From the NCBI GenBank assembly GCA_963575645.1, contig OY754469.1, forward strand, positions 37,654,753 to 37,718,752: a stretch of 64,000 bases of DNA, read 5' to 3'. The position numbers were made by a program, and so were the translations under genes. How positions within the stretch are numbered: position 1 is the first letter of the stretch; each line of letters starts with the position of its first letter. Origin of the DNA: Xanthostigma xanthostigma (Eukaryota; Arthropoda; Insecta; Raphidioptera; Raphidiidae). Below the pieces are notes generated by a model. That model did not search any database. It worked only from the letters and a program-made list of their open reading frames with translations, and was not told the origin of the DNA. Below, one piece after another: positions 15,206 to 49,920 of this stretch.

Positions 15206-15462
15206 GAAAAATAACTTTAATAATTTAGAGTGATGATGATCCTGTTTAAATGTTGGAAGATTAAGGGATGAATCCTGGTGGCATAGGATCGATGAACTAA
15301 GCAAATAGTGAAGGTTATTTTATTGCATTTTATTGTCTGACGTTTCTCCGCAGATGGCATAAAGTTTGCCGAAACGTCAGACAACAAAATGCAATAAAAA
15401 AAACCTTCAGTATTTGCTTAATTCATCGATCCTGTGCCATCAGAATTCATCCTTTAATCTTC
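15206..15462. mobile_element. Palindromic mini-Penelope candidate 1
   Basis: A 257-bp segment flanked by an exact 13-bp direct repeat CAATATCGATAGT (15193-15205 and 15463-15475). From 15255 to 15463 it is an imperfect palindrome with ~95-bp arms around TCCGCAGATGGCATAAAG. About 49 bp at the left have no partner. The centre reads GATGGCATAAAGTTTGCC then GAAACGTC, resembling the helix II plus GAAAC part of a hammerhead motif. There is no open frame across it. The layout (two inverted ends, one unpaired tail, long target duplication) matches the other mini-palindromes listed here. Confidence 0.6.
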
Positions 15463-15475
15463 CAATATCGATAGT

Positions 15476-15724
15476 ACCTATACAGCAGGGCTCACCAATA
15501 TTGGTTTTAGTAGCCAAGTTTGGTAGGAAAATTGTTGTAATTGTTATTTTAACAATGAAGGACACGGTTTATTAATACTTTGTTTTATTTTAATTATACC
15601 AAATAGTAAGAAGAACTTTTATAACAGAACTGATATATTGCAAAATATTTAAAAAGTCACTTTATCAATTTTTATTTTTCAACTACATAGTATATTATAT
15701 CAAAGCATACTCTCTATTACTCTG
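15476..15724. other. Unassigned stretch
   Basis: Nothing recognisable; AT-rich. Confidence 0.4.
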
Positions 15725-15985
15725 TATAGTCAGAGTGCCCGTCGACAAAAATTTTATTGATACATACTCTCCCCAAACTTTGTATATGGCTTCATTAGGC
15801 CTAGTCTGACACGTATTTCCTCAATGACTTTTCTTGATTTTGGGACGTTTTCCCTCTAAAGTTTCCGAAAGATGTTTTGACGACATGTTATCATTTATAG
15901 ATAATGTTTGTTTTTTAATTGGATAGCTTAAAAACTTCAACCAAAACGCTAAAGTAATGTTCTCTGACAAATAACATCACGCTCA
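15725..15985. mobile_element. MITE family C, copy 1, one end lost
   Basis: Begins ATAGTCAGAGTGCCCGTCG and is collinear (inverted) with 55740-56092: CTCCCCAAACTTTGTATA, GGCCTAGTCTGACAC, GACGTTTTCCCTCTAAA, GTTCTCTGACAAATAACATC. The opposite terminal repeat is not present here. Confidence 0.75.
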
Positions 15986-16669
15986 TATAATAGAATAGGT
16001 ATTAAATAGTAGGTTAGGTTGAAAAACAAATGAATATTCTTTTACTAACTAAGTACCCCTGTTACAACTAGCACCCCGCTCCCCTACACAGTCACCTTAA
16101 TATATTCAAGTTCTCATTAAAAAGTTACACTTAAAAAGACGGAAGTTTAATTCGTTCTAAGCAAAGCATTACTTTTTTAGAAAAATAAAGTTTAGATAAG
16201 TAAACGCAAAATGTATATCTATATAATATAATAAGTAAAAGTAAATAATAATATACTAGGCACATACATAATATATTAAGCCAAACCTCTACCACGTCTT
16301 ATATAATTAATTATTAATTTTATGTAATTTCAAAGTCTCTTCTCAAAGTTTGTAACATTTTAGGAGTTGGATTAACGTTTCTACGTTCCGCAAAATCATC
16401 TACATAATACATACTGTCATTTTGTCTTAAATTACATCGATTGTATATAATCTCAGCGTATAATATGTGGAGTCTCTACTCCCTACACGATACTCGAGTA
16501 AAAATTGTGCCCTACCTCGACGACTTTTGGCAGTTTGCGAAACTTTGGTTTTCAAAATTTTACAAATTTTTTTTCGACGACTTTTGGCAGTTTGCAAAAT
16601 TTTGTTTTTCAAAATTTTACAATTTTTTGTGTTTTGAAGTCCCATGAGTTTAAAAAATATATTTATGGA
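15986..16669. other. Unassigned stretch with a local duplication
   Basis: Between about 16520 and 16630 the phrase GACGACTTTTGGCAGTTTGC occurs twice, 58 bp apart, followed each time by AAAATTTTACAA: a short tandem duplication that explains the overlapping small frames on both strands. No gene. Confidence 0.6.
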
Positions 16670-16925
16670 AAAGGTATTTTCGAAACTATAAAGTTTAGAA
16701 TAAACATTTAAAAAAAAGCTGTCTTGGAAAATAAATAGAATAATAGACCGATATGAAAAATAAATCATAATAACAGAAAAACATGATTATAGAATATATT
16801 TCTTCTGCGCATGCGTTGAACTTCCCCAAGAACTATAAGGCACTACTTGACAAATATCTTACCAAAATTTGGTTTCGATCCGGTAAGCCGTTTGACCTGT
16901 ATAGTGCACATAGATTAAAAGAAAA
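16670..16925 (+). repeat. Repeat family A fragment
   Basis: Recognised by ACTATAAAGTTTAGAATAAA, TCTTCTGCGCATGCG, CCAAAATTTGGTTTCGATCC and GTTTGACCTGTATAGTGCAC. Diverged from the other copies. Confidence 0.7.
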
Positions 16926-17278
16926 TGGTGGCCCCACTTGTTGTATACAGGTAGCGCTGGATTTAAACTAGGGGCAGTAGCGGCAAAATTTGGAACTTGG
17001 AAATTACAGAAAATTCTTCAAAAAGTGTGAGCGCGTTGAAAACATTCATAAATACATTTTTTTTTCAGTCACACGCGTTTGCCTCTGAAAATATATCGCA
17101 ATTGATGAGTACCTAATCGTTTTGTTTGTCAATTTATGATTTTTAATACGAAAAAGAATGTTTTTTGTCTAATTATCCCATTAGTAAAAAATAGATTTTT
17201 GACATAAATGAATCATTTCACTTATTTGAAAATTGTATACGGCCGAACCTTATTGTATACCGAACATTTATGTAGAAC

Positions 17279-17892
17279 TATAGCGGTCCCGTCCGGTTTC
17301 ACCCGGGTGTAAAAGAACGAATGGGGAAGGGAGAAACATGAGTACACACATTCATCTTAGTTTACCGAGATGAATGCTGTGTCCAAATTTCATGATGATC
17401 GGAGTTACCGTTCAAAAGTTTTTGTCGATAAAAAGCGGTATTTATACTTTTTTTAACTAATATTTTTTTTTTAAATAAATTAAATAAAATTAAAATTAAA
17501 TTAAATGTAAGCCTTAAAAGAAAGCGATATAGAAAATAAAAAAAAAATAAAAATATATTCACCCAACGTGGGGCTCGAACCCACGACCCTGATATTGACA
17601 GTCGCATGCTCTACCGATTGAGCCACCTGGAGTTGTTTACTCACAGCGCTATTATGAGTATATCTAGTTAGTGCATTTCACATGGATAGAAGCTTATTTT
17701 TGAGATACATTTTGCAACATTTTTCATTCATGCTCCACTCCTAATGGTCGTAGCGTAATATTATATGGCCTATAGCCTTCCTCGATAAATGGGCTATCTA
17801 ACAATTTTTTTTTTCAGTTTGAACCAGTAGTTCCTGAGATTAGCGCGTTTAAACAAACAAACAAACTCTTCAGCTTTATATATTAGTATAGA
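17279..17892 (-). mobile_element. Non-autonomous Helitron carrying a tRNA-Lys-like sequence
   Basis: Read on the minus strand it starts A|TCTATACTAATATATAAAG at 17892, runs through AAACGCGCTAATCTCAGG, and ends with the GC-rich CACCCGGGTGAAACCGG...GGGACCGCTA just after a short hairpin. TC start, hairpin near the 3' end and CTAG-like terminus (here CTATAG) are Helitron hallmarks. A related, shorter copy lies at 54147-54475; relative to it this one has an extra ~270 bp (about 17427-17695) containing the tRNA-like body. No Rep/helicase is encoded. Confidence 0.7.
17561..17632 (-). tRNA. tRNA-Lys-like sequence, degraded (SINE or captured pseudogene)
   Basis: The minus strand reads TGGCTCAATCGGTAGAGC (A box and D arm), then GTGGGTTCGAGCCCCAC (B box and a perfect T stem/loop) and ends GTTGGGT. 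The body closely resembles eukaryotic tRNA-Lys, but the anticodon region is CTGTCAA with mismatched anticodon stem and the acceptor stem pairs at only about five positions. It is therefore not a functional tRNA. It is followed by an A/T-rich tail, so it could also be read as a tRNA-derived SINE head. Confidence 0.75.
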
Positions 17893-17955
17893 TTTAGGTA
17901 ACGGGCCGGCATTTTTCACGGTGCGCCAGGGCGGCACTTAGAGTAAATCCGCTCC

Positions 17956-18040
17956 TGTATACAGGTAAAATAGCTGAGCGGATAGAAACCAAATTTTGGT
18001 AAGATGTTTGACAAGTAAATATTAAGAGCTCTATTACTAA
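17956..18040 (-). repeat. Repeat family A fragment
   Basis: Short piece: GTATACAGGTAAAATAGC, GAGCGGATAGAAACCAAATT and TTGGTAAGATGTTTG align with the ACAGGTCAAACGGATGAGCGG block of other copies. Confidence 0.6.
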
Positions 18041-18498
18041 AGTAATTGCATATGATCACTATACCATTATACAATGTGTATTCGTGAGTACCTACTATTT
18101 CGTTCAGGGTCACGAAAATCATTTTTTATGTCACGCCCATTCATGCACTGCAAATTTTTTTACCAAAGGTATAAGAAATTAGAACAAGTATGGCTGCCAT
18201 TTTCGAATACAACTTGTAACCTATAGGTACCTATAAACTATTTGAACAGGAAAGTTGTAGCGCTGCACACACTGTGTTGTTATTAATTATTATGAAATCT
18301 CTTCAACGTAACAACGTAATAAAGCGTTTGTCTCCGAACTTTTAAAACTCTCAACAAATCTCTGATTATATTTGAGCGTGACTACAAGGAGTAAACTTTT
18401 AATGGAATATGTCTGACCAGACGTACTTTAAAAGACGTATGTTGAAGCAGTAGTACTCAGATAACTGTACCTGTAACTGCAAATGCTACACAGTGAAA
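18041..18498. other. Unassigned stretch
   Basis: No gene or repeat boundary recognised. Confidence 0.45.
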
Positions 18499-18506
18499 CT
18501 CTAAAT

Positions 18507-19022: not shown

Positions 19023-19030
19023 CTCTAAAT

Positions 19031-19608: not shown

Positions 19609-19610
19609 TA

Positions 19611-23365: not shown

Positions 23366-23874
23366 AATGTTAAAAGTGTTGCGTAATTTCCGGGTAAACA
23401 CGTTTTTTTGCCAACAGATACCGCGTTATCGTGATCTTATTCACTCTCTGCCGAAACAAACTTTTACTTTAAAAGAAATCGAAACTAAGCAGAATTCTTG
23501 TTTGTGTGTTTAAAACAAGGAATTTGTACTAATAAAGAGTTCTTGAATTTATAGTTACGTTTAATCAACATTTTTGAAACTTCGCGAGTATATTATATAT
23601 TCTTTACAACCGCTGGCAAAGTGCCTGCCGATGGCTCGTTAAGAGGCTGCAGGCTGTAATAAATAATGACAGAGAATCTGAGAGACACTTTAAGACGGCA
23701 GTGAAAGTTAGTGAAAAGTTTGAACTTAAGACATAATGCATAATACATGGCCACACTATCACATTGTAATGTATAATATACTTGAACGCATATCTAAGGC
23801 AACGGCCATTTTGAAAGGTCAGTTTTACACCCTTTATTCTGAAAACAATCCTTGGTCTGTTGTGGCTAATGTTT
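23366..23874. other. Unassigned stretch left of the Penelope locus
   Basis: No gene recognised. It ends in ...TGGCTAATGTTT immediately before the Penelope arm. Confidence 0.45.
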
Positions 23875-23941
23875 TAACAATAACACACAGGATCACGGGT
23901 ATTTGGAATATAAATTGTTAATCAGTTTAAACTATCATTGA

Positions 23942-23984
23942 TTAGCAACGTTTCGTCTTTATTCTCAAGACTTTATCAAGCTCT
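23942..23984 (-). ncRNA. Hammerhead-ribozyme-like motif, left Penelope end
   Basis: Mirror copy of the motif at 27275-27317. On the minus strand: AGC, then TTGATAA in the place of CUGAUGA, a GTCTT/AAGAC helix II with a 7-nt loop, GAAAC, GTT and GCT closing with AGC. Penelope-like elements are known to carry minimal hammerhead motifs near their ends. Two core bases differ from the consensus, so activity is uncertain. Confidence 0.5.
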
Positions 23985-24469
23985 GAAAATACAATACATT
24001 TAACATTAATATATGAGCATGATGAATAAACTCCAAAAGAAAAGATTAAAATGTTACAATAACTAACCTCAAAATCGTCTAAACGATCGTCAATATAAAA
24101 AACATACATTACTTTCCATAAACATAATTTTTCTTTTTCTTTGTAGTACTATCAATTGTTGAAAAGATGACTACAGCAAAAAATTAATTAAAAATTAAAA
24201 ACTATAACGACAGTATTATAAATAATAGAATACGTTTTCCAAACATGTGCTCTTTACACCAGTCTAACTGTCAACTTCTAAAAATTAACAACAGTCTGGC
24301 TTTTGTAAATATACACTAGATGGCACCATAAACTAAATTTCTACATGAAATTACCTAGTTATCCTACTACAAGTTATGAACAAATTAATCATATGTTAAT
24401 CAATAAATTATATCAATAAATAAACATTTAAAAACTAATACAAACAATCCAACTCTAAAAACTCGAGAA

Positions 24470-26092
24470 TCACTTTGTGCCCAGGATTTCATTGTATACC
24501 AAGCTCAAGTTATGCGTGTCCGATCTTAAGTTCACTGTTTTATTCAATTTGATGAAGCACATTTCACTAAGTGAACGCTTGAAGTAATTGGATTCTTTGT
24601 CAAGGATTGAAACCTCATCAAACATAAAATTGTGCTCAGTATCAAAGTGATGACTGGCTAACGCTGTTTTATTTTCTTTAAGGATGTTAGTGTTCCTACA
24701 GTCATACTGATGTTGTTTGACTCTATCCCTCAACTTCTGCTTCGTCTGTCCAATATAAGACTCCCCACAGGTGCAAGGTATTTTATAGATCACATTAGAC
24801 CTGTCCAACACTGGAACCCTATCCTTCAGCCTTGTATAAACTGATTTAACAGTTTTTAAGTTATAAAAGGCCAATTTGCCATATCGTTCTTTTGCGAGGG
24901 CATCAATTTTATGAGAAATCTCCTTAATAAAAGGAAACCTGCAATACTTGACACACGGATTACGATCTCTTCTGTTTAAACTCATCGGACAGTAATTATT
25001 AAGCACTCTGTCTATCAGTTTCCTCGGATAATTATTATCAACCAAAAGGTCAATAATGATGTTCTTATTCTTATCATGGAACTCTTGATGACTTAAGCTG
25101 AATGCTCTTTTTATTAAACCTTTAATCATCCCAACTTTCTGACTCATTGGGTGATTGGATGCATAATTTAATAATCTGCCCGAATGGATCGGTTTCCGAT
25201 ACCAATCAGTCTTCAAACTCCCATCTTGTAGTCTAAAAACAGTCAGATCTAAAAAATTAATAGCATCCTGTTCTTCTAACTCCATTGTGAATTTCAACTT
25301 GGAATTGAAACTATTAAAGACCGTTAAAAGATTCGATGTTTCACTTCTTGGGACACTTAGTATACTATCATCTACGTACAACTTGATCAGGGGAACTGGA
25401 TATCTCAAACGTTGTAAAACATTTCTAAACACGTAATCCATGATGATATCAGCGAGGACAGGACTTGCTGGGTTCCCCATGCTTGTGCCATCACACTGCT
25501 GGTATAGCTTATCATCAAATAAAAAGAAACTCGAGTCAAAACAAAACTCAATCAGTTTCAATACTAAATCTTTGTCTTTCAAACCAATCAGTCTTGACCA
25601 ACTCTCCCATTCCTCAGTTATAACCTGTAATACTAATAGTTTTGGAATATTTGTGAAGAGAGACACTACATCCAAGGAAACTAAAACATAATCAGGTGGT
25701 AAAAACACAGTCTTAGTATGCTGAACCAGTTCAAAAGAATTCTTGACGCTAAATTTGAAACTCTTAGTGATCGGTGACAAAATATTATGAAGCATCTTAG
25801 CTAAATTATAACATGGTGAACCAATGCAACTCACCACAGGACGAAGATTACAGCCAACTTTATGTGTTTTTCTCAAACCATACAACCTCGGTGCTATCGA
25901 ATTCCGGATCTTAACCTTCTTCAACTCAACCTCATCAATCACACCATTAACTTTCAGCGAAGTAGCTAACTCATTGGCCATCCGTTGAAATTTAACAGTT
26001 GGATCCTTGATCAACGGCCTATACGTCTTTACATCATGTAACATATTATGCATTGTTTCCATGTATTCTCTTCTATCCATAACCACTGTGGA
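24470..26092 (-). CDS. Penelope-like reverse transcriptase with GIY-YIG endonuclease, N-terminally truncated
   Basis: The frame opens at the copy junction with NSTVVMDRREY, the sequence that normally follows DKGN near the start of Penelope RTs, so the N-terminal part is missing by structure. Of ~540 residues, LYGLRKTHK (~70) and NLRPVVS (~82) are fingers motifs and SLDVVSLFTNIP (~135) holds the first catalytic Asp. SMGNPASPVLADII (~207) is motif B, LYVDDSI (~240) the YVDD catalytic pair, INFLDLTVF motif D/E, and WYRKP...GRLLNYASNHP the thumb. A GIY-YIG nuclease follows: VIYKIPCTCGESYIGQT (~431), KLRDRVKQH with the conserved Arg, ALASHHFDTEH, and SLSEMCFI with the likely catalytic Glu. The CTC..H-H residues fit the zinc-binding variant of Penelope nucleases. 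The protein copies its own RNA into nicked DNA. Apart from the missing start the frame is open to the stop. No ATG belongs to the original start, so expression from this copy is doubtful. Confidence 0.93.
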   Translation of the reverse strand, partial: STVVMDRREYMETMHNMLHDVKTYRPLIKDPTVKFQRMANELATSLKVNGVIDEVELKKVKIRNSIAPRLYGLRKTHKVGCNLRPVVSCIGSPCYNLAKMLHNILSPITKSFKFSVKNSFELVQHTKTVFLPPDYVLVSLDVVSLFTNIPKLLVLQVITEEWESWSRLIGLKDKDLVLKLIEFCFDSSFFLFDDKLYQQCDGTSMGNPASPVLADIIMDYVFRNVLQRLRYPVPLIKLYVDDSILSVPRSETSNLLTVFNSFNSKLKFTMELEEQDAINFLDLTVFRLQDGSLKTDWYRKPIHSGRLLNYASNHPMSQKVGMIKGLIKRAFSLSHQEFHDKNKNIIIDLLVDNNYPRKLIDRVLNNYCPMSLNRRDRNPCVKYCRFPFIKEISHKIDALAKERYGKLAFYNLKTVKSVYTRLKDRVPVLDRSNVIYKIPCTCGESYIGQTKQKLRDRVKQHQYDCRNTNILKENKTALASHHFDTEHNFMFDEVSILDKESNYFKRSLSEMCFIKLNKTVNLRSDTHNLSLVYNEILGTK

Positions 26093-26100
26093 ATTTCAAT

Positions 26101-26789
26101 CCAATCACCCAATGAGTCAGAAAGTTGGGATGATTAAAGGTTTAATAAAAAGAGCATTCAGCTTAAGTCATCAAGAGTTCCATGATAAGAATAAGAACAT
26201 CATTATTGACCTTTTGGTTGATAATAATTATCCGAGGAAACTGATAGACAGAGTGCTTAATAATTACTGTCCGATGAGTGTAAACAGAAGAGATCGTAAT
26301 CCGTGTGTCAAGTATTGCAGGTTTCCTTTTATTAAGGAGATTTCTCATAAAATTGATGCCCTCGCAAAAGAACGATATGGCAAATTGGCCTTTTATAACT
26401 TAAAAACTGTTAAATCAGTTTATACAAGGCTGAAGGATAGGGTTCCAGTGTTGGACAGGTCTAATGTGATCTATAAAATACCTTGCACCTGTGGGGAGTC
26501 TTATATTGGACAGACGAAGCAGAAGTTGAGGGATAGAGTCAAACAACATCAGTATGACTGTAGGAACACTAACATCCTTAAAGAAAATAAAACAGCGTTA
26601 GCCAGTCATCACTTTGATACTGAGCACAATTTTATGTTTGATGAGGTTTCAATCCTTGACAAAGAATCCAATTACTTCAAGCGTTCACTTAGTGAAATGT
26701 GCTTCATCAAATTGAATAAAACAGTGAACTTAAGATCGGACACGCATAACTTGAGCTTGGTATACAATGAAATCCTGGGCACAAAGTGA
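26101..26789 (+). CDS. Penelope-like element, truncated second copy (RT thumb plus GIY-YIG)
   Basis: The open frame from SNHPMSQKVGMIKG to NEILGTK (~229 residues) matches the C-terminal part of the minus-strand protein except for one residue (CPMSVNRR here, CPMSLNRR there). It keeps the whole GIY-YIG domain (VIYKIPCTCGESYIGQT, KLRDRVKQH, HFDTEH, SLSEMCF) but none of the RT catalytic motifs. The frame can be extended upstream to 26007, but those first ~31 codons are antisense to the other copy's RT and are an accident of the head-to-head junction. Confidence 0.9.
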
Positions 26790-27274
26790 TTCTCGAGTTT
26801 TTAGAGTTGGATTGTTTGTATTAGTTTTTAAATGTTTATTTATTGATATAATTTATTGATTAACATATGATTAATTTGTTCATAACTTGTAGTAGGATAA
26901 CTAGGTAATTTCATGTAGAAATTTAGTTTATGGTGCCATCTAGTGTATATTTACAAAAGCCAGACTGTTGTTAATTTTTAGAAGTTGACAGTTAGACTGG
27001 TGTAAAGAGCACATGTTTGGAAAACGTATTCTATTATTTATAATACTGTCGTTATAGTTTTTAATTTTTAATTAATTTTTTGCTGTAGTCATCTTTTCAA
27101 CAATTGATAGTACTACAAAGAAAAAGAAAAATTATGTTTATGGAAAGTAATGTATGTTTTTTATATTGACGATCGTTTAGACGATTTTGAGGTTAGTTAT
27201 TGTAACATTTTAATCTTTTCTTTTGGAGTTTATTCATCATGCTCATATATTAATGTTAAATGTATTGTATTTTC

Positions 27275-27317
27275 AGAGCTTGATAAAGTCTTGAGAATAA
27301 AGACGAAACGTTGCTAA
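27275..27317 (+). ncRNA. Hammerhead-ribozyme-like motif, right Penelope end
   Basis: AGAGC-TTGATAA-A-GTCTT-GAGAATA-AAGAC-GAAAC-GTT-GCT. Helix I would be AGC/GCT, helix II GTCTT/AAGAC (five perfect pairs), helix III is minimal, and the GAAA core box is intact. The 5' core box is TTGATAA instead of CTGATGA. The position near the 3' end of the element is where such motifs lie in other Penelope-like elements. The fold is read by eye; self-cleavage is not shown. Confidence 0.5.
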
Positions 27318-27550
27318 TCAATGATAGTTTAAACTGATTAACAATTTATATTCCAAATACCCGTGATCCTGTGTGTTATTGTTATTTACGTCTGGAATTG
27401 AATTTAAAAAATGGATTTTCAACCTGGGGGACTAATGTTTTAAGTTTAGTGGCCCGGCTTCGCCCGAATTTGTAGATTGCTATCGTTTTTTCGTCGACAT
27501 ACGTTGCAAAATTGGCCTCCATGGAAAACGCATTTATTTTAACGCGATAA

Positions 27551-28130: not shown

Positions 28131-28143
28131 TTATATAGCCTAT

Positions 28144-28366
28144 TACAAATATTAAGAGCACTGTGGTTGAAATAAAAATAAAAAAATAAAGATTAGTTAC
28201 TTCTTACCACAGCAGTTTTATTAGCGAATGTACATTTCGGGAGCTATGCTCTCATCTTCAGCAAACACTTAACTCTTTGTTTGCTGAAGATGAGAGCATA
28301 GCTCCCGAAATGTGCATCCGCTAATAGAACTGTTGTGGTAAGAAGTAACTATTCTTTATTTTTTTA
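28144..28366. mobile_element. Palindromic mini-Penelope candidate 2
   Basis: Flanked by an exact 12-bp direct repeat TATATAGCCTAT (28132-28143, 28367-28378). From 28179 to 28366 the arms are inverted copies (TTAGTTACTTCTTACCACA... with ...TGTGGTAAGAAGTAACTA) around a ~10-bp centre. The left ~35 bp (ATTAAGAGCACTGTGGTTG) are unpaired. Each arm contains GCTGAAGATGAGAGC-ATA-GCTCCCGAAATG, which resembles a hammerhead helix II plus GAAA. A second copy lies at 49519-49773 in the opposite orientation. No open frame. Confidence 0.7.
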
Positions 28367-28499
28367 TATATAGCCTATGTCCATCCAGGTCAGTTCTAAA
28401 TATTGGTGAAAAACATTTTGAAATCGGATGAGTAGTTTCGGAGATTACCGCCTACATACAAACTCACATACTTTATCTCTTTATATATTTAGTAGAGAT

Positions 28500-31145: not shown

Positions 31146-31405
31146 TTAGGAGGACATTCGTTCAGTCAAGACATTTATACGAGTATATAGAATTTTTTTG
31201 CGCGCACCTCCTATAAATGATCTGATTTTCAAATAATTAAAAAAATATTTGACAGTCAATTTTTAAGCAAAATCACTTCTAATTATTGTAGGCTATGTTC
31301 AATTATTTATCTTACAGTAACCCCGAGAGAAAATTTCTGAAAGAGAAGATGAATCGGGCAGCTACTCACTTTATAAATATTATAAGTTTTGTTCCAAAAA
31401 TATAC

Positions 31406-31605
31406 AATATTGAAGGAGATTTATTTGGTTAAGGAACAATTGAAAAATAAGCTTTACCCGAGTATCGCTTGTGGCCAACGTATCGAAAAATATATCTTCA
31501 TCATCAGGGCCTCAAAATATATTTTTCGAAACGTTGGCCACAAGCGATACTCTGGTAAAGCTTATTTTTCAATTGTTCCTCAACCAAATAAATCTCCTTC
31601 AATAT
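31406..31605. mobile_element. Palindromic mini-Penelope candidate 3
   Basis: A 200-bp palindrome: AATATTGAAGGAGATTTATT pairs with AATAAATCTCCTTCAATATT. Pairing continues through GGAACAATTGAAAAATAAGC and CGCTTGTGGCCAACG to a small centre holding CATCATCAGGGCC. A shorter version lies at 36369-36511. The centre of the left arm contains an intact CTGATGA box (minus strand). No clear target duplication beyond AATATTA. The plus-strand frame 31389-31667 is a product of the palindrome. Confidence 0.65.
31473..31511 (-). ncRNA. Hammerhead-ribozyme-like motif
   Basis: Minus strand: GGCC-CTGATGA-T-GAAGA-TATAT-TTTTC-GATAC-GTT-GGCC. The CTGATGA box is perfect, helix II pairs GAAGA with TTTTC (one G-T), and helix I is GGCC/GGCC. 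The second core box reads GATAC instead of GAAAC, but the partner arm and the copy at 36.4 kb read GAAAC. The same order (stem, CTGATGA-like box, helix II, GAAACGTT, stem) is present in the Penelope element at 23.9/27.3 kb. Confidence 0.5.
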
Positions 31606-32739
31606 TAAATTATTATTTCCATAAGCTGCAAATTACCTGCAATAGATGCATTGTTTTGAACGGATAACCGCACAATTTGCATCAGTTTTTTTGCCTTTGC
31701 AAGCGACCGTACGGCAAGCATAGCTTATAAAATAGGTATACTTTATTAATAATGTATAAAACTTAGTGGCTTTTTACAAGCTTTGATTTATCTTGCAGTG
31801 TTTGTACGTTATTTTGTTTGCTTAGGTCAAATCTTGTAAGCTTAATTAGAACCGCTTCCTCTTATCCTACGGAGTTAAATTTTTACATGTTGGTTCAGTT
31901 CTGATGACAATACAATATTATAATATCTAACTGACCGGTCCGGCTTTCGTACGGATGCAAATCGCACTTTTAATAAAGCATGCGACAACTTTTTCAGCTA
32001 CTTCCCGCGCCGTTATCCGATTGAGCTGAAATTTTGCATACGTATGTAGTTCCGATGACAATAAAATATTATAATAACTAACTGACCGGAACTGTCTAAA
32101 TCTAATCAACAGAAATATTGAGAGTTCTCTATCTTTAACGCGCAATCCATACTTCTAAGTCAATGGTAGGTACCTTCATTGCAACAGAAACTAACTTCAC
32201 TAAGGAATGTTTAATTTAAACTTGTTCATACGTGAACATGTGGTGGCTACATTGAGTTTGTTTCAAGTGTTCACATCTTGAGTTTCAACATTCTTTTTGT
32301 TGTTCTTTATATTTTCTTTATTTAAAACTAGATTAACTCGAAGTTGTCAATAGTCGGATGTCGGGCTGGACAAACACACTGTCAAGCAATCCAAGTGGAC
32401 AGTGCTCTTAAATCGGGGTCACCCTGAGACGTTTCTATTGATGGAATTATTGGAAGCCAAAAACAGGTAGCTAATATAAATAAAATTGCAAGTTTGAAAA
32501 AATTCACACCCGGCAAAACGTGAAAGAAGATTACCAGCAATGGTACACAATAATTTTTAAGTTGATTCTTTTTTTTAACAGCCAGTAGAAATCAAATAGA
32601 CGAACAAAATATTTTAAGTAACTTTTTTATCAAAACTCAAAAATAAGAGAGTAACTGCCTTTCAAAGTTTAAATAGATTTTTTAAATTTTGTTAAATTAA
32701 TATTTAAGCCCGGTCAACACACGGAAAAAAATGATTACA
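31606..32739. other. Unassigned stretch with a decayed repeat
   Basis: About 31755-32100 resembles 50345-50600 (TTTTTACAAGCTTTGATTTA, TTGCAGTGTTTGTACG, GGTCAAATCTTGTA). TTCTGATGACAATA.AATATTATAAT.A occurs twice within it, ~145 bp apart (about 31899 and 32052). No gene. Confidence 0.45.
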
Positions 32740-36319: not shown

Positions 36320-36368
36320 TTAATACATAAAGAATTTTATTAGTAGAAGTTTTGCTCCAAAAATATGT

Positions 36369-36511
36369 ATTGAAGGAGATTTATTTAGTTGAGGAACAAT
36401 TGAAAAATAATTGCTTTACCAAAATATATTTTTCGAAACGTTGGCCACAAGCGATACTTTGGTAAAGCTTATTTTTCAATTGTTCCTCAACCAAATAAAT
36501 CTCCTTCAATA
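36369..36511. mobile_element. Palindromic mini-Penelope candidate 4
   Basis: TATTGAAGGAGATTTATTTA pairs with AAATAAATCTCCTTCAATA. It is a shorter relative of 31406-31605 in which the left inner arm is deleted, leaving a single TTTTTCGAAACGTTGGCC core. A partly matching ~15-bp direct repeat (ATAAAGAATTTTATT / ATAAAGAGTTTTACT) flanks it. Confidence 0.6.
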
Positions 36512-36751
36512 AAGAGTTTTACTGATCGGTCTACCACTAAGATGATGAAGAAGTTAAAAATCGAGAAGCTGATTAATCCCGCCAGGTTGAACATTTATTA
36601 GTTCCACTGTACTTTTAAAATAAAATCAAAAGTAAACTTGTCAGTGAGTTGAGAGATTTGTAACTTTCTTCGATGCACTGACGTTGATTCCATTTAAATA
36701 TAAGATGCACTCATTCACTCAAAATCAACGAGATCAGTTTATTGTCAATAC
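36512..36751. other. Unassigned stretch
   Basis: Nothing recognisable. Confidence 0.4.
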
Positions 36752-36834: not shown

Positions 36835-37174
36835 AAAATAATCACTTCTAACTACACTGATAATAACCTAACTTTTTTAAAACAAATTGTTTTTTGAACA
36901 TGTTATATTTAGCCATACTCTACTATTTTTATTGTTCTAAATACTGCACTCTTTGTAATCACTAATGTTTAACATGTTATTTAGGTAGTCACTTTGCTTA
37001 ACAGAATAAAAAACAAACAAAAGTGATTACTCACAGTATTTATTTTGCTTAGCACTTGGTAATCACCGTGGTTATAAATAACTTCACTTGTAAGTTTGTT
37101 TAAAATATAAATTAACAATACATTAGATATCGTGTCCATCGCGATAATAATTGATAAGAAAAATCGCAGGATTG

Positions 37175-37257
37175 TTGACAAAAAGTTAGATTTATTAGTG
37201 TACAACGTTTCATCTATAAACGAAACGTTGTACGCTAATAAATCTAACTTTTTCTTA
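37175..37257. repeat. Short palindrome with GAAACGTTGTAC
   Basis: AAAAAGTTAGATTTATTAGTG and TACAACGTTTC pair with GAAACGTTGTACGC and TAATAAATCTAACTTTTT around a 10-nt loop (ATCTATAAAC). The centre carries the GAAACGTTG phrase seen in the Penelope and mini-palindrome cores. Antisense frames at 36981-37205 and 37132-37356 mirror each other because of it. Confidence 0.7.
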
Positions 37258-39442: not shown

Positions 39443-42400
39443 TCAGTCTATATCCGCTTTAGGATTATTTTTATTTCTGTTGTTTGTACGCAATATTTTC
39501 CTTCTTTTTTTACCATATTCAAGTTCTTCAGTTTGTTTTTCTACTGGTTCATCTTTATAGATTTCCGTGTTATTGTTAACTTTCTCCTGTTGCTTATTTT
39601 TTTCAGCTGTAGGTCTACGGTTACGTCTTTTGCTAGGAACTAATTTAGTCGTTTTAACTTTTTCATCATTAATTACTTTTTGTTTATCACCATACTTATG
39701 CCTAGACGTATCACTTCCAAATTTCACTTCCTCATAGCTTTCCGATCCCTGAGTTTTTTTATTCTTTTTTCTTATCCAATAATTTTGACTCTGCTCTAGT
39801 TTTTGATCATCATTTTCAGTCAATTTGTTTTTTTGAGCCATCGCTTCATTTTGTGGTCGCATGAAACCATTTTTTTGATCCCAATTTTTAAAACTATTCT
39901 CACTCGCCGCAAATCGAATTTCTTCACCACTCGTTGAACCTTTGAGCGAATTTTTATTAAGTCCTGAATAATTCCCGGCAGAAATTTGATAATCCAGCGT
40001 GTCTCTGTTACCATAGTAACCATTTGGCTTGAAACCATTCGTATTACCGTTAGTCCATGATTCTGGTTTGTTTCTAATATTTTGCGTGCCCCAATATGTT
40101 TCATTTCGATCGTCATCATACATTGGTCTAAAACCATTATCATTATTTCGATAGAAGGTTTGTGGAGATACTTGCTTCATATTGTGATCGCTTTGATCAA
40201 AATACTCATTACCTTGATTATTTCCAGATGCGTTATTTCCTTTATAATTGCCCTTATACATATTTTTGTTGTAAACTGATTTATCATTTCGGACATTTTC
40301 ATCTTTCCAATACTCCTCCGTATGTTTTTGCTGATTATTTTGACCCTTAATATTTTTATAAGTGTTGTATTCCGGATTATATTCAGCACTATTATTGGCA
40401 TACGCATTTGGGTCATTGCCTTTAAAATTGTTCCTTTGACTATATCCAAAATAGTTTCCGTGATTATACTTATAATCATTGTGATCATCATAATACTTCT
40501 GACCATTACCGTATTTATGACTCTGATCCCGTTTATTTTCATGACTATTATAACGCTGATTTTTATCATGATAATATTTATAATTTGAATAAAGATTCCC
40601 ATAATCTTGTCCTTTATTACGATAATATATGTTGCCTCCATTATATCCAGACTGATGATGCTGATTTTGATGATAATTATTTGCTTGTTTCTTCTTCGTT
40701 GGATTATCAAAACTATTTTCATAACCTCCATTATATCCAAACTGATGATGTTGATTTTGATGATAATCATTCATTTGTTTTTTTCCCGTCGGATTACCGT
40801 AACTATTTCCATATTTCTTATCATGGTGATAATGCATCATGGGATGTTGATCTTGATGATTTACATTTTCATAGTTAATTCTATGATCCTGATAATACCC
40901 ACGATAACGATGATTGTTGCTATTCCATTGATAATTTGATGGTTGATTCACTTGATCATGATTGCTGTGGTAGTTGCGGACATGACTTTTCTCTGGTTTG
41001 GAATATATGTATTCATGAATCCTCGATTCTTGATGCAATTGATTATATCCATGTTCTTTATTATTGGACGATTGATACCCTTGATAATTCTTCATCTCAT
41101 TATTTCCTTCAGGATAATGTGGTTCAAATACATTTTTATGGTGATGATGTGGATTATGTTTCTGTTCATGAGGATTTGATTTTGATTTGTGGACTTGGTT
41201 ACAAGGAATTCTAACAAAAATATTTTTTTCGATATGAATAGGTATTAACTTCTTCACTTCAACAGGAAAAGGCACTTTTTTCTCGACTATATAAGGAATA
41301 TATTTTTTTACTTCGACAGGGACATGTTTTATGACTTGTTTTGAATACATTTCATGTTTGGGTAGTTCTATAGAATGTTCAGTAAATTGATTTGGTTTGA
41401 AATGTTCAACAGTCGAAGTTTCATCTCCATGATTTGCAAATTTGGCAGAAGTATCAGAATGCGGTATAAACACAGGAGCTGGAACTTTTTTTTCAACAGT
41501 TTTCGTTTCAGATTTTAAAAATCTATTCATGGAATCTGCTATTATTTGTTTCATTGATTGCGTTTTCATTTTCTTTATTATAACTGTGAGTGGTTCTCCC
41601 AATAGAAAGACTTCTTCCGATGCTGGGAGATGCTCAGATGTTAATGGATGCTTTTGAGGTAATGATTTTTGTGGAATATATTCTGATGGTTGAAAAGCGT
41701 CAGTTGGGAATTTTTGGGGTAATTGTCCAACTGATGTTGAAAAACTACTTGTCGAAATTTTTTTGGGTAATTCTACCTCTGATGAAGTAAAACTACTCGC
41801 CGAAAATTTTTTGGGTAATTGTCCAATTGATGAAGAAAAACTCGACGAATCTTTTTTTGGTAAATGAGCTATTGATGAAGGAAAGCTATCAATCGAAAAT
41901 TTTAGCGGCGGCGCTTCTAATGACGGAGAAAAATTGTTGGTAGTTGATTTTTGAGACGTGTAACCTATTGATGGTAGAAAATTATCTGCTGAAAACTTTT
42001 CAGGTGTAAGTTCAACAGATGATGGAAAAAAATCAACATTTGGCGTTTGTGTTGAAAACAGATTGATATCATCTTCATTAAATTTGATAACTGAATGGAA
42101 CTGTACAGGGCCAACCGCTTTATTAAGCGACCCCATGACTTTATTTTGGTATTGCCCGTCATTTTTGTTTTTCTGTGTATTGTCTTCAACTATTATTCCA
42201 GTGCAAATGAGAAGACAGGTGCAAAATGACACAGCAATCTAGAAAAAAAGGAAAATAATAAAATTATAGACAAAATCAGCCTAAACACCAAAGATTCTCT
42301 CGCGTTTTTTGCCAGGTTTTTCTCACATCTTCTCTCCAGTGAGTGTAAATTTTGCGATTGCATAAATGTGGGCTTTGACGGGAAGCCAAGCATACACATT

Positions 42401-44765: not shown

Positions 44766-45301
44766 CATTAAGAACGTGCTTTTAGGAATAACATTTTCAA
44801 GAACTAAAGCTGTATATTCGCGGGCGCCGGTTGAAATCAAACGTGTCTCGGCCGATCCGCCAGCCATTTTGTGTCGGTGTAAAATGAACGCGATCGGTGA
44901 CACATAGAGCTGATACAATAACTGTAATTTAAAATCGGTTCTTTGTCAGTAACAGTTAATAACTGTTAATAACTGTTATTTTAACTCATATCTAACGTTG
45001 CATGATTAGAAAAGGGAATGTTATTGTTCACTCGGATTGCGTGTTTAACATGTTAATTATAAAATTGTACTTGACCGCCGTTACACCAAGCTCTCGTGCG
45101 ATAATCCATTAGCGACTAGAATTCTTCTATACCGATTTGTGACCAACGCTCTTTAGAATAGAATAGTATAGAATAAAATTATCCGAAACAGCTATACCCA
45201 CCCAGAATTCGTCAATTAATTATACAGTGTAAACTCTATATAGCAACACTCAAGGGACTGTGCACAGAATAGTCGCAAATATTATATTACACCACAAAGC
45301 G
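44766..45301. other. Unassigned stretch
   Basis: The minus-strand frame 44721-44918 (MAGGSAETRLISTGAREYTA) has unusually GC-rich codons but no family I recognise. AATAACTGTTAATAACTG repeats near 44950. No gene called. Confidence 0.4.
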
Positions 45302-45814
45302 TGAACGATAACGGGGTATGCGAATTGTTTCGCAATGAAACGGGAAGGGGGAAAGAGGATGTTTCTAAAAAAACAATTCCGGGGTGAACGATAACGGGGT
45401 ATGCCTTTGTTTCGCAGTGAAACGGGAAGGGGGAAAGGGAGAGTTTCTAAAAAAACAATTCCGAGGTGAACGATAACGGGGTATGCATTTGTTTCGCAGT
45501 GAAGCGGGAAGGGGGAAAGGGGGAGTTTCTAAAAAAACAATTCCGAGGTGAACGATAACGGAGTATGCCTTTGTTTCGCAGTGAAACGGGAAGGGGGAAA
45601 GGGAGAGTTTCTAAAAAAACAATTCCGAGGTGAACGATAACGGAGTATGCCTTTGTTTCGCTGTGAAACGGGAAGGGGGAAAGGGAGAGTTTCTAAAAAA
45701 ACAATTCCGAGGTGAACGATAACGGGGTATGCATTTGTTTCGCAGTGAAGCGGGAAGGGGGAAAGGGGGAGTTTCTAAAAAAATAATTCCGGCGTGAACG
45801 ATAACGGGGTATGT
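45302..45814 (+). repeat. Minisatellite, 82-bp unit, ~6.2 copies
   Basis: TGAACGATAACGGGGTATGC begins at 45302, 45385, 45467, 45549, 45631, 45713 and 45795, so the period is 82-83 bp. Each unit also has TTTCGCAGTGAAACGGGAAG and AGTTTCTAAAAAAACAATTC. Units 3 and 6 share the variant GTGAAGCGGG and units 2, 4 and 5 share CCTTTG: a higher-order pattern of local duplication. The inverse, decayed array is at 2258-2480. GC-richer than flanks and non-coding. Confidence 0.95.
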
Positions 45815-45965: not shown

Positions 45966-46069
45966 ATGTAAAGTCGCGTAATCGAGATTCTTGCACTGCG
46001 CGCCATGATGCCCGATTCGAGCCGAGTTCAAAGCTCTTAAACTATCTTTGCCCGTGTGTATACTAGATA

Positions 46070-46320
46070 TTCTTCTTCATACTGCGGTCGAAAGTACTTA
46101 TACTTATTAATTACATAAAAACATACATGAATTCCATGCAAGCAGCTTTGAGGTTGTCCGTAAAAACACAAACGACTATGGGCTGGTGGCAGTAGCGGCA
46201 ATCTAATGGAACGGTGTACATGATAACAATTTTTCTTTATAGCCAATGAATAAATGTTAGACTTTCTGCCTTAAAATTGATGCCGGAAGTACGTACTTTC
46301 GACCGAGGTATGAAGAAAAA
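46070..46320. mobile_element. MITE family E, copy 1
   Basis: Ends TTCTTCTTCATACTGCGGTCG then AAAGTAC, and the inverse GTACGTACTTTCGACC then GAGGTATGAAGAAAAA. Related to 48057-48244. A phrase GCACTGCGCGCCATGATGCC lies just outside (about 45995), and a near-identical one lies beside copy 2, so the true element may be larger. Confidence 0.7.
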
Positions 46321-46877
46321 CTAAATTTATCCTTGTAAGGTGCTTTTCGTGACAGTTTTGGTTTGAGAGACTAAAAACGTAATATTTCAAAGAAATGTTA
46401 AAAGTAAAGAAAATTAGTTTTCTTAAAATCCCACGTGGATAATAATTCTTTGAATATTTTTACACGATTCGGACAAAACGCAATATTATTGCAGCGTCGA
46501 TAATTATGTGAAAAATGTTATAAGTACTAAGGAATTAAATGATTTTAATTGATTATAAATTTCACTTTTCATTTACTTGCACTTATTTGAATAAAATATG
46601 TATAAAAATTACACGCTCCAGTCAGGCGTAGACTAACAATATCAGGCACCATCCGTTATGTTTTTGATGTAATTAAATTTAGTTATTGATGACTAATTAA
46701 AACAAACAATATTATATTATATTTAAATAGTTCATTCTGACTAATGTGGTGGTCCTTTTCAAGATCAACAAAAGAAATGACAACAATAATGGTAAAAAAA
46801 CAAAACAAATGTTGATTGTTGAATAAAATAACAAAGAAATATCTGACTATAAATTCATAAAAAAATCAAAAAGTTAA
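46321..46877. other. Unassigned AT-rich stretch
   Basis: Nothing recognisable. Confidence 0.45.
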
Positions 46878-47192
46878 GGTATAATACGCGCTACTAATCT
46901 AAAAGGCTCATAAGTTAGATACGAATGCGGCCTTGCGCTTGTACAGTCTGTTGAAAAACTACAAACTCGCAACTCAACAAAACTAAAATAGCAATAACAA
47001 CTTGACAATAGCGTACTCGACTGTACTTTAAAGCAGGAAAGCCACAAGTGACAAAGGCAACGAGCGATCACGGCCAATCACCTACGAGCGCACGTTCCGT
47101 ACAGGCAGCTGGGAGTTAGTGGGAGTATCAACGGTTCTGAAATGTGCCTTTGCGACGCTTCCGAAACTTTTAGATCCGTAGTGCGGATTATA
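46878..47192. mobile_element. MITE family B, copy 3
   Basis: Ends TATAATACGCGCTACTAATC and GTAGTGCGGATTATA; inner blocks as in copy 1 (GTACAGTCTGTTGAAAAAC, CAACTTGACAATAGCGTAC, GATCACGGCCAATCACC). Minus orientation relative to copy 1. Confidence 0.85.
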
Positions 47193-47197
47193 GTTCG

Positions 47198-47421
47198 CTC
47201 GTGAAACGTCTTTTCTTAGGAATTTAATAAAATTGAAAAATAAGGTAAATAAAAGTATATTTATATTTAATTAAAAAAAATTAAATTTTTTCACCATCTG
47301 TAAAATGAAATATTAATAATCAAAATGTGCACAATTAACATTCTGAAGGTACCTATACCATGTAGAAAAGGAGAACATTCCAGAATATCTCGAAAAGGGT
47401 TCTTAGTATATTTTGTTTTGA
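47198..47421 (+). repeat. Dispersed repeat family H, copy 1
   Basis: Matches 63711-63930: CTCGTGAAACGTCTTTTCTTAG, AATTTAATAAAAT, AATCAAAATGTGCA, ATTCCAGAATATCTCGAAAA then GGTTC and TAGTATATTT. Starts right beside MITE B copy 3. Non-coding. Confidence 0.75.
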
Positions 47422-48056
47422 CATTGACCATGAAAAAATGATAGTAACGCTAACCAATGAAGAGCAAGGGCAATGCCGGGTTTGACAACTAGTCGTAGTC
47501 CTTACAGAAGCTGACGGCTAAGACAAAGTGCAAATTAGCAGCTCATATACAGCAATTTAGCTTTATTGCATTGACTCTCATAGCTTACTCTCGTGTATAT
47601 TAATTGGCTTTTTATTAATGAACAGTCGAACCTTTACACTACATTGTATCTGTAGCCAAACGGAAAAAACACTTATGTCGAATTATTTAACATAATCGCA
47701 ATTAGTGTTGCCAGGCGTCCGGATAAAGCCGGACATAGTTAGGCTTTTTGATTGCGTGTCCGGCCAAAATAAACAGTGTCCGGCTTTTGTTAGGCTTTTT
47801 ACATTTTGCAAACGAGCGAGCGTCGAGCGTGGCCTAGCGCAGGCGAGTATGAATAATGATTTTTATTAACTTAAAGAAAAGAATTTTTGTTTAGTTTAGA
47901 TTGTGGGGCCCCAGTTTGTAACATGAATGTTGTTAAATTCAACACTGTTGAATTGGTACGCTTGTTTTTTTTGACGCACTAGTGTTAGGTGGCTATATTT
48001 TACGACCGCCCTACACGCATAAAAGACAGTTTATAAGGGATAGTGCAAAATATATA
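47422..48056. other. Unassigned stretch
   Basis: GTTGCCAGGCGTCCGGATAA and GTGTCCGGCTTTTGTTAGGC near 47700-47800 look like part of a DNA-transposon end but no partner end is found. No gene. Confidence 0.4.
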
Positions 48057-48244
48057 TTTTCTTCATACCTTGATCGAAAGTACGTACTTTCGTCCCTTAT
48101 AGCAGGGACGAAAGTTTGACATTTACTCCCTGTTATTTATTATATTAAATGACAGCGGTAACCCGCCGTTCTCACTGGAAGTAAATGTCAATCTTTCATC
48201 CCTGCTGACGAAAGTACGTACTTTCGAGCGGATATGAAGAAAAA
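48057..48244. mobile_element. MITE family E, copy 2
   Basis: Ends TTTTCTTCATACCTTGATCG and CGAGCGGATATGAAGAAAA; inside each end is the palindrome CGAAAGTACGTACTTTCG. GTTTGACATTTACTCCC pairs with GGAAGTAAATGTCAAT. 188 bp. Confidence 0.8.
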
Positions 48245-48702
48245 TCGTATACACCACACGGGCCTTAAAAGTTGAAATCTCGGCACTGCGCGTCATGATG
48301 CCGAAAATTCAACTTTCAGCCCTTGTGATGTAAGTAATATACAATTTGTGTACCGTATAAAATTTTATACAATCAATAAAATAAAAAAATATGTTCCAGT
48401 ATGGAAATTGAAAAATATTTGACATAAGCGTTTTAACCGTGTGGTAATAGCTTTTATTCACCATCTTTGAAGTTTCAAGCACCCTCTTGAAATATTATTA
48501 AACTCTAAGCGATTATTATGGAGTATATGCTTTCATTAAAAAAGTATTTGATGCATTTTAATGCAAATAAAATAGAATTAATCCCTGATTAGCGTACAGT
48601 ATACGTAGAAGAAGAATTACCTAAGCTTTTATATAAACTACGATTTTCTAGTCGGTTATAACATTTTTTTACCTTTTATGAATTTTATATGAAGTACAGT
48701 CA
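48245..48702. other. Unassigned stretch
   Basis: GGCACTGCGCGTCATGATGCC at ~48282 is shared with 45993. Otherwise nothing. Confidence 0.4.
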
Positions 48703-48906
48703 GATTCATGTATTTTCAATCTCATCTATTTTCAACTGATTTTAATTACGTATAATGTCAAGTTTTTAGTCTCTATTTATTACGCAGAGTGTCTCCTCCT
48801 ACGCTGCTCAACCAATGAAAAACTTTAACAAAGTAGCAAAAATGTTCTGATTGGTCTGTGACTACCACGAAGTAAGGATGGAGATGAAGTTGAAAATACA
48901 TGAATC
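48703..48906. mobile_element. MITE with GATTCATGTATTTTCAA ends
   Basis: Left GATTCATGTATTTTCAATC then TCATCT and right AGATGAAGTTGAAAATACATGAATC (paired with one gap). 204 bp. A related half, with ATGTATTTTCAACATCATC, lies at 35957-36060. Non-coding; the 194-codon frame at 48900-49484 begins in its right end and continues into family A, so it is not a gene. Confidence 0.8.
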
Positions 48907-49069
48907 GATTCTTTGCTATTTTTTATAAACAGTTTCGTGAGGTAAGACTGCAATACGGTGAAGTCGAAGGCTCCAATACTGTTGACGCTACCGTTTTTCA
49001 TCTCAATTGCGTGCCGGCCAGAAATATAACGCGTGAGATGACGGGTACTAGATTAGGTCAAAATTCACA

Positions 49070-49920
49070 TTACAAAAATGTTACAATATCTTTTCGTTTT
49101 GAGGTCCCCCTAATCCAAAAAACATATTTTTGGAAAAACTCTGTGCGTCTATTAGTCTGTTCGTCTGTGAGCACGATACAGGTCAAACGGATTGAAACCA
49201 AATTTTGGGAGGATGTTGGGTATGCAAATATAAAAATCGTTTTTATTTTTGGGGAAAATAGGCGCATGCGCAGTAGAGATATATGCTATAACGGTGTTTT
49301 TTATATAACAATGATATATACTTTTCATAACAGCTTATTATTCTATTTATTTTTCAAGAAAGTTTCGTTAAACATTTTTTTTTCCAAACTTTATAGTTTC
49401 GGAAATATTTTGAAAATAAAAAAAAATCAGCTGTTATTTTGTTTTGTAGATCTGTCAAAAATAAACCAGTTAAGCATGCTTTGATTAATTTTTACATGAT
49501 GTGATAACGTATTATTATAAAAAATAAAGAATAGTTACTTCTTGCCACAAAAGTTTTATTAGCGGATGTACATTTCGGGAGCCTTGCTCTCATCTTCAGC
49601 AAACACAGAGTTTAGTGTTTGCTGAAGATGAGAGCATAGCTCCCAAAATGTACATCCGCAAATAAAACTGTTGTGGAAAGAATAAACTATTCTTTGTTTT
49701 TTTATTTTTGTTTCAACCACAGTGCTCTTAATATAATGTATAATTAATTATTAATATGTATATTATATACATATTATTATGTACGTAACTATGGCAACGA
49801 ATAGCAAATATCATATTGAATACCAGCCATTACCCGCGTCTCCTCAGAAAATATAAAAAAAAAAAAATTTTTATTATACTATATTAAATGTCAACATGGT
49901 CCCGTCGCCCAATTGGCCGG
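49070..49920 (-). repeat. Repeat family A copy, split by a palindromic element
   Basis: Left part 49070-49518 (GACCTGTATCGTGCTCAC-type block inverted, GGCGCATGCGCAGTAGAG, TCAAAGCATGC inverse). Right part 49774-49920 (ACTATGGCAACGAATAGC, CCATTACCCGCGTC, GTCGCCCAATTGGCCGG). The 255-bp insertion between them shows the order of events. Confidence 0.8.
49519..49773. mobile_element. Palindromic mini-Penelope candidate 5
   Basis: Second copy of candidate 2 (28144-28366), in opposite orientation, inserted into a family-A repeat. The expected site reads ...ACATATTATGTAGG..., and TATTATTAT is present on both sides (49510-49518, 49774-49782), a 9-bp target duplication. The palindrome is 49519-49703 with GCTGAAGATGAGAGC-ATA-GCTCCCAAAATG in the right arm, and the unpaired tail CAACCACAGTGCTCTTAATA follows to 49773. 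No open frame. Confidence 0.75.

Follow-up and report, generated by a model that had tools for sequence, protein, structure and literature searches.

Short palindromes in the genome of Xanthostigma xanthostigma are probably Penelope-like insertions without open reading frames

We analysed a 64-kb stretch of the genome of the insect Xanthostigma xanthostigma (Raphidioptera; assembly GCA_963575645.1, contig OY754469.1, positions 37,654,753 to 37,718,752), called the window here, and searched the 623-Mb genome to which it belongs. Unless another contig is named, positions are those of the window. Our main finding concerns six short palindromes in the window, which fall into four families that are dispersed through the genome. 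They are probably insertions of Penelope-like elements (PLEs) that lack an open reading frame (ORF) and that would have been built by priming from both nicked strands of the target on the leader RNA of a PLE.

Results

All six palindromes that a preliminary description of the window had reported are present (Table 1). They had been treated as one set with a shared layout, and a single family was rejected as comparison splits them into four: A (at 31406 and 36369), B (28144 and 49519), C (15206) and D (37175). An extra tail had been noticed in three of them; set against other copies, all six have a tail on one side, that of the A copy at 31380-31606 being degraded and lying left of 31406. In the second A copy (36340-36511) the junction falls within an arm and the core of the central motif is lost.

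A first look at the genome gave 1,101 candidates for A, 1,997 for C, 1,374 for B and 561 for D. The best 40 candidates per family, scored on both strands, yielded 82 (A), 80 (C), 80 (B) and 88 (D) match rows, many of those for D spanning a single arm only. The exact C tail 21-mer occurs 1,025 times and the exact B tail 21-mer 551 times, tails within longer PLE copies included, and the reversed control patterns do not occur. The families are dispersed genome-wide, far above chance, as the preliminary description had predicted. We read 8 copies of A, 30 of C and 30 of B (L001-L068), window copies among them. By an automatic criterion, with copies oriented by the tail, the tail is confined to a single arm in 7/8 A, 30/30 B and 30/30 C copies; in the eighth A copy (L003) it is gapped. 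Exact flanking repeats of at least 8 bp and of variable length border 5/8 A, 20/30 B and 25/30 C copies, compared with means of 0.28, 1.84 and 0.62 copies in a swapped-flank control (never above 2, 4 and 3 copies in 300 shuffles). Simple-sequence runs account for some of the longest repeats. The target duplications and one-sided tails expected of dispersed copies were found for A, B and C.

Within the window, exact duplications are firm for C (13 bp), for B at 28144 (12 bp) and for a coding PLE locus (12 bp). Exact repeats of 9-13 bp had been claimed for three palindromes; those of C and B stand, and the third is probably TATTATTAT at 49510-49518/49772-49780, a match composed of A and T only that lies well past the usual tail end. 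The A copy at 36340 has 7 exact flanking bases, equalled or bettered by 13/500 random pairs, and by eye an imperfect 10-bp repeat with one mismatch (36330-36339/36512-36521). At the borders of the other three palindromes the exact flanking bases are at chance level: 5 for A at 31406 (matched by 140/500 random pairs), 6 for B at 49519 (55/500) and 6 for D (44/500).

The coding Penelope locus at 23875-27384 has the head-to-head design described earlier, with arms of 1,286 nt each (23875-25160 and 26099-27384). Its ORF matches the Pfam reverse transcriptase (RT) family RVT_1 at 30.1 bits (cut-off 29.6) and GIY-YIG at 22.0 bits (E 2e-4), slightly below the cut-off of 22.6; matching frames elsewhere in the genome reach 823 codons. 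Beyond the shorter copy stands a tail that was absent from the preliminary description. In the tandem array L089 the pseudo-long terminal repeat (pLTR) is followed by exactly this sequence, which continues into ATGGATTTTCAACC (likely including the ORF start), and the tail is therefore body sequence adjoining the pLTR. With RT and GIY-YIG in one ORF, an inverted copy, a tail and a target duplication, the locus is a GIY-YIG-type PLE. Inverted copies, a one-sided tail and a flanking duplication are the anatomy that it has in common with the palindromes. The L089 array itself (C7:24097325-24111335) consists of five near-identical PLE copies in direct tandem with a period of 3,097 bp and an 823-codon frame in each.

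The ends of families C and D are common to PLE copies with RT and/or GIY-YIG coding matches. For C, a pattern combining the central motif with an adjacent splice-acceptor-like stretch (YTTTAG or similar, other strand) occurs at 9 sites. One is L031; the other 8 were fetched (L090-L092, L096-L100), and 2/8 have tblastn matches to the PLE protein. L092 (contig C2) holds, in order, a GIY-YIG C-terminus, a stop codon, a 3' untranslated region (UTR), GTAAGT, TTTTAG, the motif, the C pLTR and the C tail, and its GIY-YIG end shows 40% identity. The tblastn match of L096 (contig C10) to the window PLE covers residues 1-537 in four pieces (E 5e-90), with the C pLTR and tail downstream; the reading frames of L096 are broken, and both the RT and the GIY-YIG matches are kept. 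A palindrome end joined to a Penelope RT gene, as had been predicted, is thus present in L096. In L102, upstream of L096, no 5' pLTR was found. L090, L091, L097 and L098 are shortened copies that keep the intron region partly or fully and match the 3' part of L092; none has a tblastn match to the PLE protein, and the DNA match of L098 extends about 100 nt into the coding end. The arms of D match 5 of the 20 PLE 3' flanks that we fetched out of 80 PLE matches (L073, L074, L084, L085 and L088; E 3.5e-11 to 1.2e-10), with 86% identity over 49-52 nt, and the D tail matches the sequence that comes next in L074.

The four matches to the family A partner pattern were all read and, lacking any PLE coding match, rejected as autonomous partners: two are palindromes (L093 and L094), one is a single arm (L095), and one (L101) combines a single arm with a short inverted centre. 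The family B pattern has 99 matches, of which one was read (L103) and rejected, being a single-unit insertion without a PLE. A link of A to PLEs is supported by its motif, one-sided tail and variable duplications. B is linked by architecture only, with no demonstrated PLE relative. One PLE lineage has a family B-like palindrome (78% identity, ~48-273) within the 3' UTR in each of the two copies fetched, L071 and L072, and that PLE may carry the palindrome along; the match was rejected as a shared end, since it appears to be a B insertion in the UTR.

A hammerhead-like motif unit was met in 18/20 PLE 3' flanks with a search string for CGAAACGTY-type letters, and by eye L080 and L082 hold it in altered form. 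The unit runs from stem I through a CUGANGA-like core, stem II and CGAAACGUY to stem I'. The names and numbering of the CUGANGA and GAAA core follow those of the hammerhead. In an alignment of 13 sequences (the window PLE and 12 from PLE 3' flanks), standard pairs make up 94.9% of pair cells. Changes on both sides of a pair affect 46 cells; shuffling gives a mean of 12.2 and sliding no more than 10. Stems I and II, which surround CUGANGA and GAAA, covary. A covariance model built solely from these 13 PLE motifs (R1) finds the centres of A in 7/7 copies outside the window (E <= 0.0013) and those of C in 26/29 (E <= 1), with 10/29 at E <= 0.01. Inside the window, C and D score 18.6 and 16.7 bits, near noise. 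R1 also finds 14 further matches elsewhere in the flanks of the copies, several of them strong, and PLE-type motifs are therefore common near these loci. In two of the eight A copies read (31462-31516 and L005) the centre is flipped relative to the tail. In 15/20 PLE 3' flanks (L069-L088) a YAG, usually after a pyrimidine run, shortly precedes the motif and might act as a splice acceptor or mark an initiator-like start site; the D-type flanks L073, L074, L084, L085 and L088 are without it.

The leader of Penelope in Drosophila virilis contains an intron. In L091, L092 and L098 of family C, GTAAGT...TTTTAG stands ahead of ATTCTCCG; the donor is altered in L097. The intron-like stretch of L092 starts with GTAAGT after GACAGCATTG and ends with TTTTAG, followed by ATTCTCCG. 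The intron-free junction, CAGCATTG joined directly to ATTCTCCG, occurs 605 times in the genome and the intron-bearing acceptor form 57 times, a ratio that is rough because these are exact patterns of different letters and both forms can sit in longer copies. That the intron-free junction is far commoner points to a spliced RNA template, and splicing would account for the missing intron in C. One of the 30 C copies (L033) extends clearly into exon 1 and has the joined form, as do the single unit L099 and the palindrome L100. Four less selected C copies (L104-L107) came from the top seven rows of the tail list. Two of them, L104 and L107, are short palindromes; L106 has a joined arm in which exon 1 is longer, and L105 has an intron-bearing arm. 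Unspliced arms therefore exist too, and size varies. One pLTR subtype is shared by the intron-bearing L090 and L091 and by L009-L038, L099 and L104, and a TTTG-type pLTR is found in L092, L096 and L097 and in the palindromes L100 and L107. Both subtypes, in small numbers, thus hold palindromes as well as intron-bearing copies, which lends some support to an origin of the palindromes as leader copies of PLE mRNA.

Variants common to both arms of one copy number 22 in C (null 3.4; 0/2,000 shuffles as high), 7 in B (null 2.0; 1/2,000) and 4 in A (null 0.95; 56/2,000). The 30 C copies have 17 distinct junction pairs, the 30 B copies 16 and the 8 A copies 5, counts that alignment jitter of 1-2 nt may inflate. 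The C variant 27T is found on three junctions (L021, L025 and L033) and 10T on two (L018 and L019). The commonest C junction (8/30 copies) lies, by eye, at a TTC microhomology common to both sides and carries differing subfamily variants. Shared arm variants together with differing junctions suggest that the inverted arrangement is made at insertion from one source. Each arm holds sequence absent from the other in 30/30 C, 5/8 A and 7/30 B copies. In all 30 C copies the tail-side arm has the tail and stops within the motif region (L033 just past it), and the other arm is without the tail and extends further 5'. Neither C arm was therefore copied from the other.

Table 1. Palindromes and coding PLE features of the window
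Feature	Position	Strand	Details
Family C palindrome	15206-15462	+	inverted-repeat arms 15250-15468, 89% complementary
Family C parts			tail ~15206-15249; tail-side arm from 15250; junction ~15336
Family C hammerhead-like motif, non-tail arm	15339-15393	+	18.6 bits, E 0.12, this copy
Family C left target-site duplication CAATATCGATAGT, 13 bp	15193-15205	+	right copy 15463-15475
Family B palindrome	28144-28366	+	inverted-repeat arms 28173-28372, 93% complementary
Family B parts (copy at 28144)			tail ~28144-28177; two inverted arms join at CTGAAGATG...CCCGAAATG region
Family B left target-site duplication TATATAGCCTAT, 12 bp	28132-28143	+	right copy 28367-28378
Second family B palindrome, reversed	49519-49734	-	arms 49519-49702, 90% complementary
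Second family B tail, right side	~49703-49734		no convincing target duplication
Family A palindrome	31380-31606	+	inverted repeat 31406-31606, 96% complementary; arms 31406-31498 / 31514-31606
Family A complete motif	31462-31516	-	28.4 bits, E 0.0004
Second family A palindrome	36340-36511	+	inverted repeat 36359-36520, 92% complementary
Family D palindrome, one-sided tail	37122-37254	+	inverted repeat 37180-37253, 92% complementary
Head-to-head PLE insertion	23875-27384	-	longer copy on minus strand, shorter inverted copy on plus strand
PLE open frame, 541 aa, reverse transcriptase and GIY-YIG endonuclease	24470-26095	-	
Hammerhead-like motif, longer PLE copy	23932-23988	-	50.5 bits; one of the 13 sequences behind the scoring model
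Hammerhead-like motif, second PLE copy	27271-27327	+	50.5 bits; model as in the row above
One-sided PLE tail, 47 nt, beyond shorter copy	27385-27431	+	identical to post-pLTR sequence in L089
PLE target-site duplication CTAATGTTTTAA, 12 bp	23866-23877	+	second copy 27432-27443

The window holds further repeats. A near-perfect hairpin (CATGAACCATTTAAAATGTCTGACACC...) is common to 55759-55835 and L103 (~490-560) and resembles a further short inverted-repeat element without the motif. At 2144-2256 there is a short near-perfect palindrome (96% complementary, arms 1 nt apart), with similar sequence in L082. An 82-bp tandem repeat of 6.2 copies occupies 45301-45813, similar units being present at 2258-2478 and in L082, and a 122-bp tandem repeat of 4.1 copies occupies 50616-51117. 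On the minus strand, 39443-42238 is an open frame of 931 aa with abundant N, H, K and Y residues that had no Pfam match at E<=0.001 and possibly encodes a fast-evolving secreted protein; also on the minus strand, 17568-17625 gives a tRNA-like Rfam match of 30.4 bits against a threshold of 29.

Discussion

We consider it probable that the palindromes are ORF-less Penelope insertions, formed when a PLE protein primes synthesis from both nicked strands on PLE leader RNA. The RT/GIY-YIG endonuclease would nick the two DNA strands about 8-15 bp apart, and each free DNA end would prime one copy of the leader RNA, which for C would be a spliced RNA comprising exon 1, the hammerhead-like motif, the pLTR and the start of the body. 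Synthesis would begin at two neighbouring internal positions: one side would start at the pLTR end and the other at the tail end, which lies about 30-50 nt further along. The two copies would extend toward each other until they are joined 5'-to-5' close to the motif, in some cases through a short microhomology. The product would be a palindrome tailed on one side and flanked by target duplications. Leader copies would be the outcome if the enzyme took the first pLTR-body junction of a spliced mRNA as its start. We infer the acting enzyme, the two primings in vivo and the use of two RNA copies from genomic sequence, and most copies would be dead on arrival. Insertion of RNA copies by a Penelope-type enzyme, as proposed in the preliminary description, is supported by the ends that C and D share with PLEs, by the tails and duplications, and by the motif in A and C.

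A broader proposal has, in our judgement, about an even chance of being right. Default Penelope integration might consist of two simultaneous target-primed reverse transcriptions, one per nicked strand, from two neighbouring internal starts, with the two RNA copies joined 5'-to-5'. A single reaction would then have a long outcome, the inverted pLTR of full-length elements, and a short one, the ORF-less palindromes, which would result each time that the first pLTR-body junction of an ordinary spliced mRNA serves as the start.

Several observations weigh against the reading of the palindromes as two-sided leader copies. The copies read (L001-L068) were chosen as best matches to the window copies, and the sample is therefore biased toward similarity. 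L092 and L096, the PLE copies that combine C ends with coding matches, are partial or decayed, and no coding PLE with A or B ends was found among the few candidates read. A central motif had been reported in most palindromes and a hammerhead covariance search proposed; the PLE-only model bears this out for A and C and matched 0/29 B copies outside the window. Rfam hammerhead models gave no match at E<=10 in the six palindrome loci or in seven PLE loci, nor any hammerhead in the window at the gathering threshold; the Rfam matches that the six loci did give were mostly sub-threshold long-hairpin microRNA look-alikes and were rejected. Apart from L033, the 30 C copies end too close to the exon boundary to judge splicing, although none has an acceptor, and the intron-bearing L105 turned up among only four less selected copies. 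In the A copies L001 (from the window) and L005 the longer arm is on the tail side, so that fold-back is possible there, and the B arms are equal within 2 nt in 17/30 copies, which makes them uninformative.

Among other explanations, the palindromes could be true non-autonomous families, analogous to short interspersed nuclear elements (SINEs) or retrozymes, whose own transcripts are copied by the PLE protein in trans. The high C and B tail counts (longer PLE copies included), the fairly even length of the A and B copies fetched and the lack of any PLE with A or B ends among the loci read would suit such families, and pLTR-flanked foreign sequence has been reported to move in trans (PMC3846280). 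Against this, copies with common subfamily variants differ in their junctions, both pLTR subtypes have palindromes and intron-bearing copies (in small numbers), and copies with longer arms exist, intron-bearing in L105 and intron-free with a long exon 1 in L106. In addition, anole PLE RNA that included less than the first 172 nt of the ORF showed no activity (PMC11167929), and should that element be representative, copies that stop at the tail are missing RNA required for activity, which argues against self-propagation. We therefore regard self-propagating families as unlikely and favour dead leader copies over SINE or retrozyme analogues; retrozyme identity was rejected, since it requires direct tandem units and the units here are inverted. 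The preliminary description, which had proposed self-propagating families of this kind, is on the whole partly supported, and gives way here because the inverted arrangement appears to be remade at each insertion.

Inheritance of the palindrome as a unit, with arms homogenised by gene conversion, would likewise yield variants shared by the arms; the flipped centres of two A copies could reflect arm exchange, and one C junction does recur. The many junction pairs in C and B, even if inflated by jitter, and the differing subfamily variants at the recurrent junction, with its TTC microhomology, make this explanation improbable. Fold-back self-priming, in which a single cDNA or antisense RNA bends back and primes its own copying, has been proposed for rotifer PLEs (PMC3846280). 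It accounts for inverted arms, shared variants and the short microhomology at the recurrent C junction, yet the private sequence in each arm, found in every C copy and in some of A and B, excludes its simple form for C and makes it quite improbable overall. Miniature inverted-repeat transposable elements (MITEs) or fold-back DNA transposons also have short inverted repeats and high copy number, but the variable duplication length, the one-sided tail, the ends held in common with an RT-coding element and the intron-free junction leave this barely plausible; a DNA-transposon identity is contradicted for C by its variable duplications and PLE ends, and the ends of D are those of PLEs too.

Two-sided priming on leader RNA would make the small palindromic copies a genome-side view of Penelope integration, which is poorly understood. 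A large set in one genome would record finished reaction products: both starts, both duplications and the joint. In at least one family the palindromes speak against self-priming by fold-back, and they open two-sided priming to direct tests. They may also account for a class of short inverted repeats liable to be annotated as MITEs.

A literature search by titles and abstract openings found no description of ORF-less palindromic PLE copies. The closest biochemical system is the anole Poseidon PLE, whose protein cuts and extends both strands in vitro, whose two adjacent internal RNA start sites bracket a tail, and whose shortest active RNA contained the first 172 nt of the ORF (PMC11167929). 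Two-strand extension, two adjacent starts with the tail between them and a minimal hammerhead are all features like those proposed here; that study concerns one element in vitro, and joined two-sided products or palindromic genomic copies are not described in its main text. Animal retrozymes are, like the palindromes, small, ORF-less, hammerhead-bearing and thought to depend on PLEs, but consist of tandem repeats with type I hammerheads that have helix III and form circular RNA (PMC7229834, PMC7761336), whereas here the units are inverted pairs with a minimal motif. PLE hammerheads are minimal, without helix III, and may cleave as dimers, according to a review citing Cervera 2014 and Lunse 2017 (PMC7761336). 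The motif described here resembles them in its CUGANGA-like core, stems I and II, CGAAAC-GUY and lack of helix III. It differs in one extra base between the core and stem II, by the core numbering that we assume, and in marking the junction of palindromic insertions, as judged from sequence alone.

The architecture is closest to that of PLEs in the rotifer Adineta vaga (PMC3846280). There, Pen2a has an inverted pLTR on its 5' side, one inverted pLTR bears a 31-bp tail that continues into the ORF, and Pen2a-type PLEs have target duplications of 8-10 bp, head-to-head repeats and sequence captured between pLTRs that is moved in trans. The inverted pLTR, the tail derived from body sequence, the target duplications and the head-to-head arrangement are therefore alike in the two systems. 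The A. vaga PLEs are described as low in copy number, most copies having ORFs or foreign sequence, and their solo pLTRs as devoid of duplications. In X. xanthostigma, by contrast, there are many ORF-less palindromes with duplications, those of family C mostly have an intron-free junction, and the two arms of a C copy are not copied from each other.

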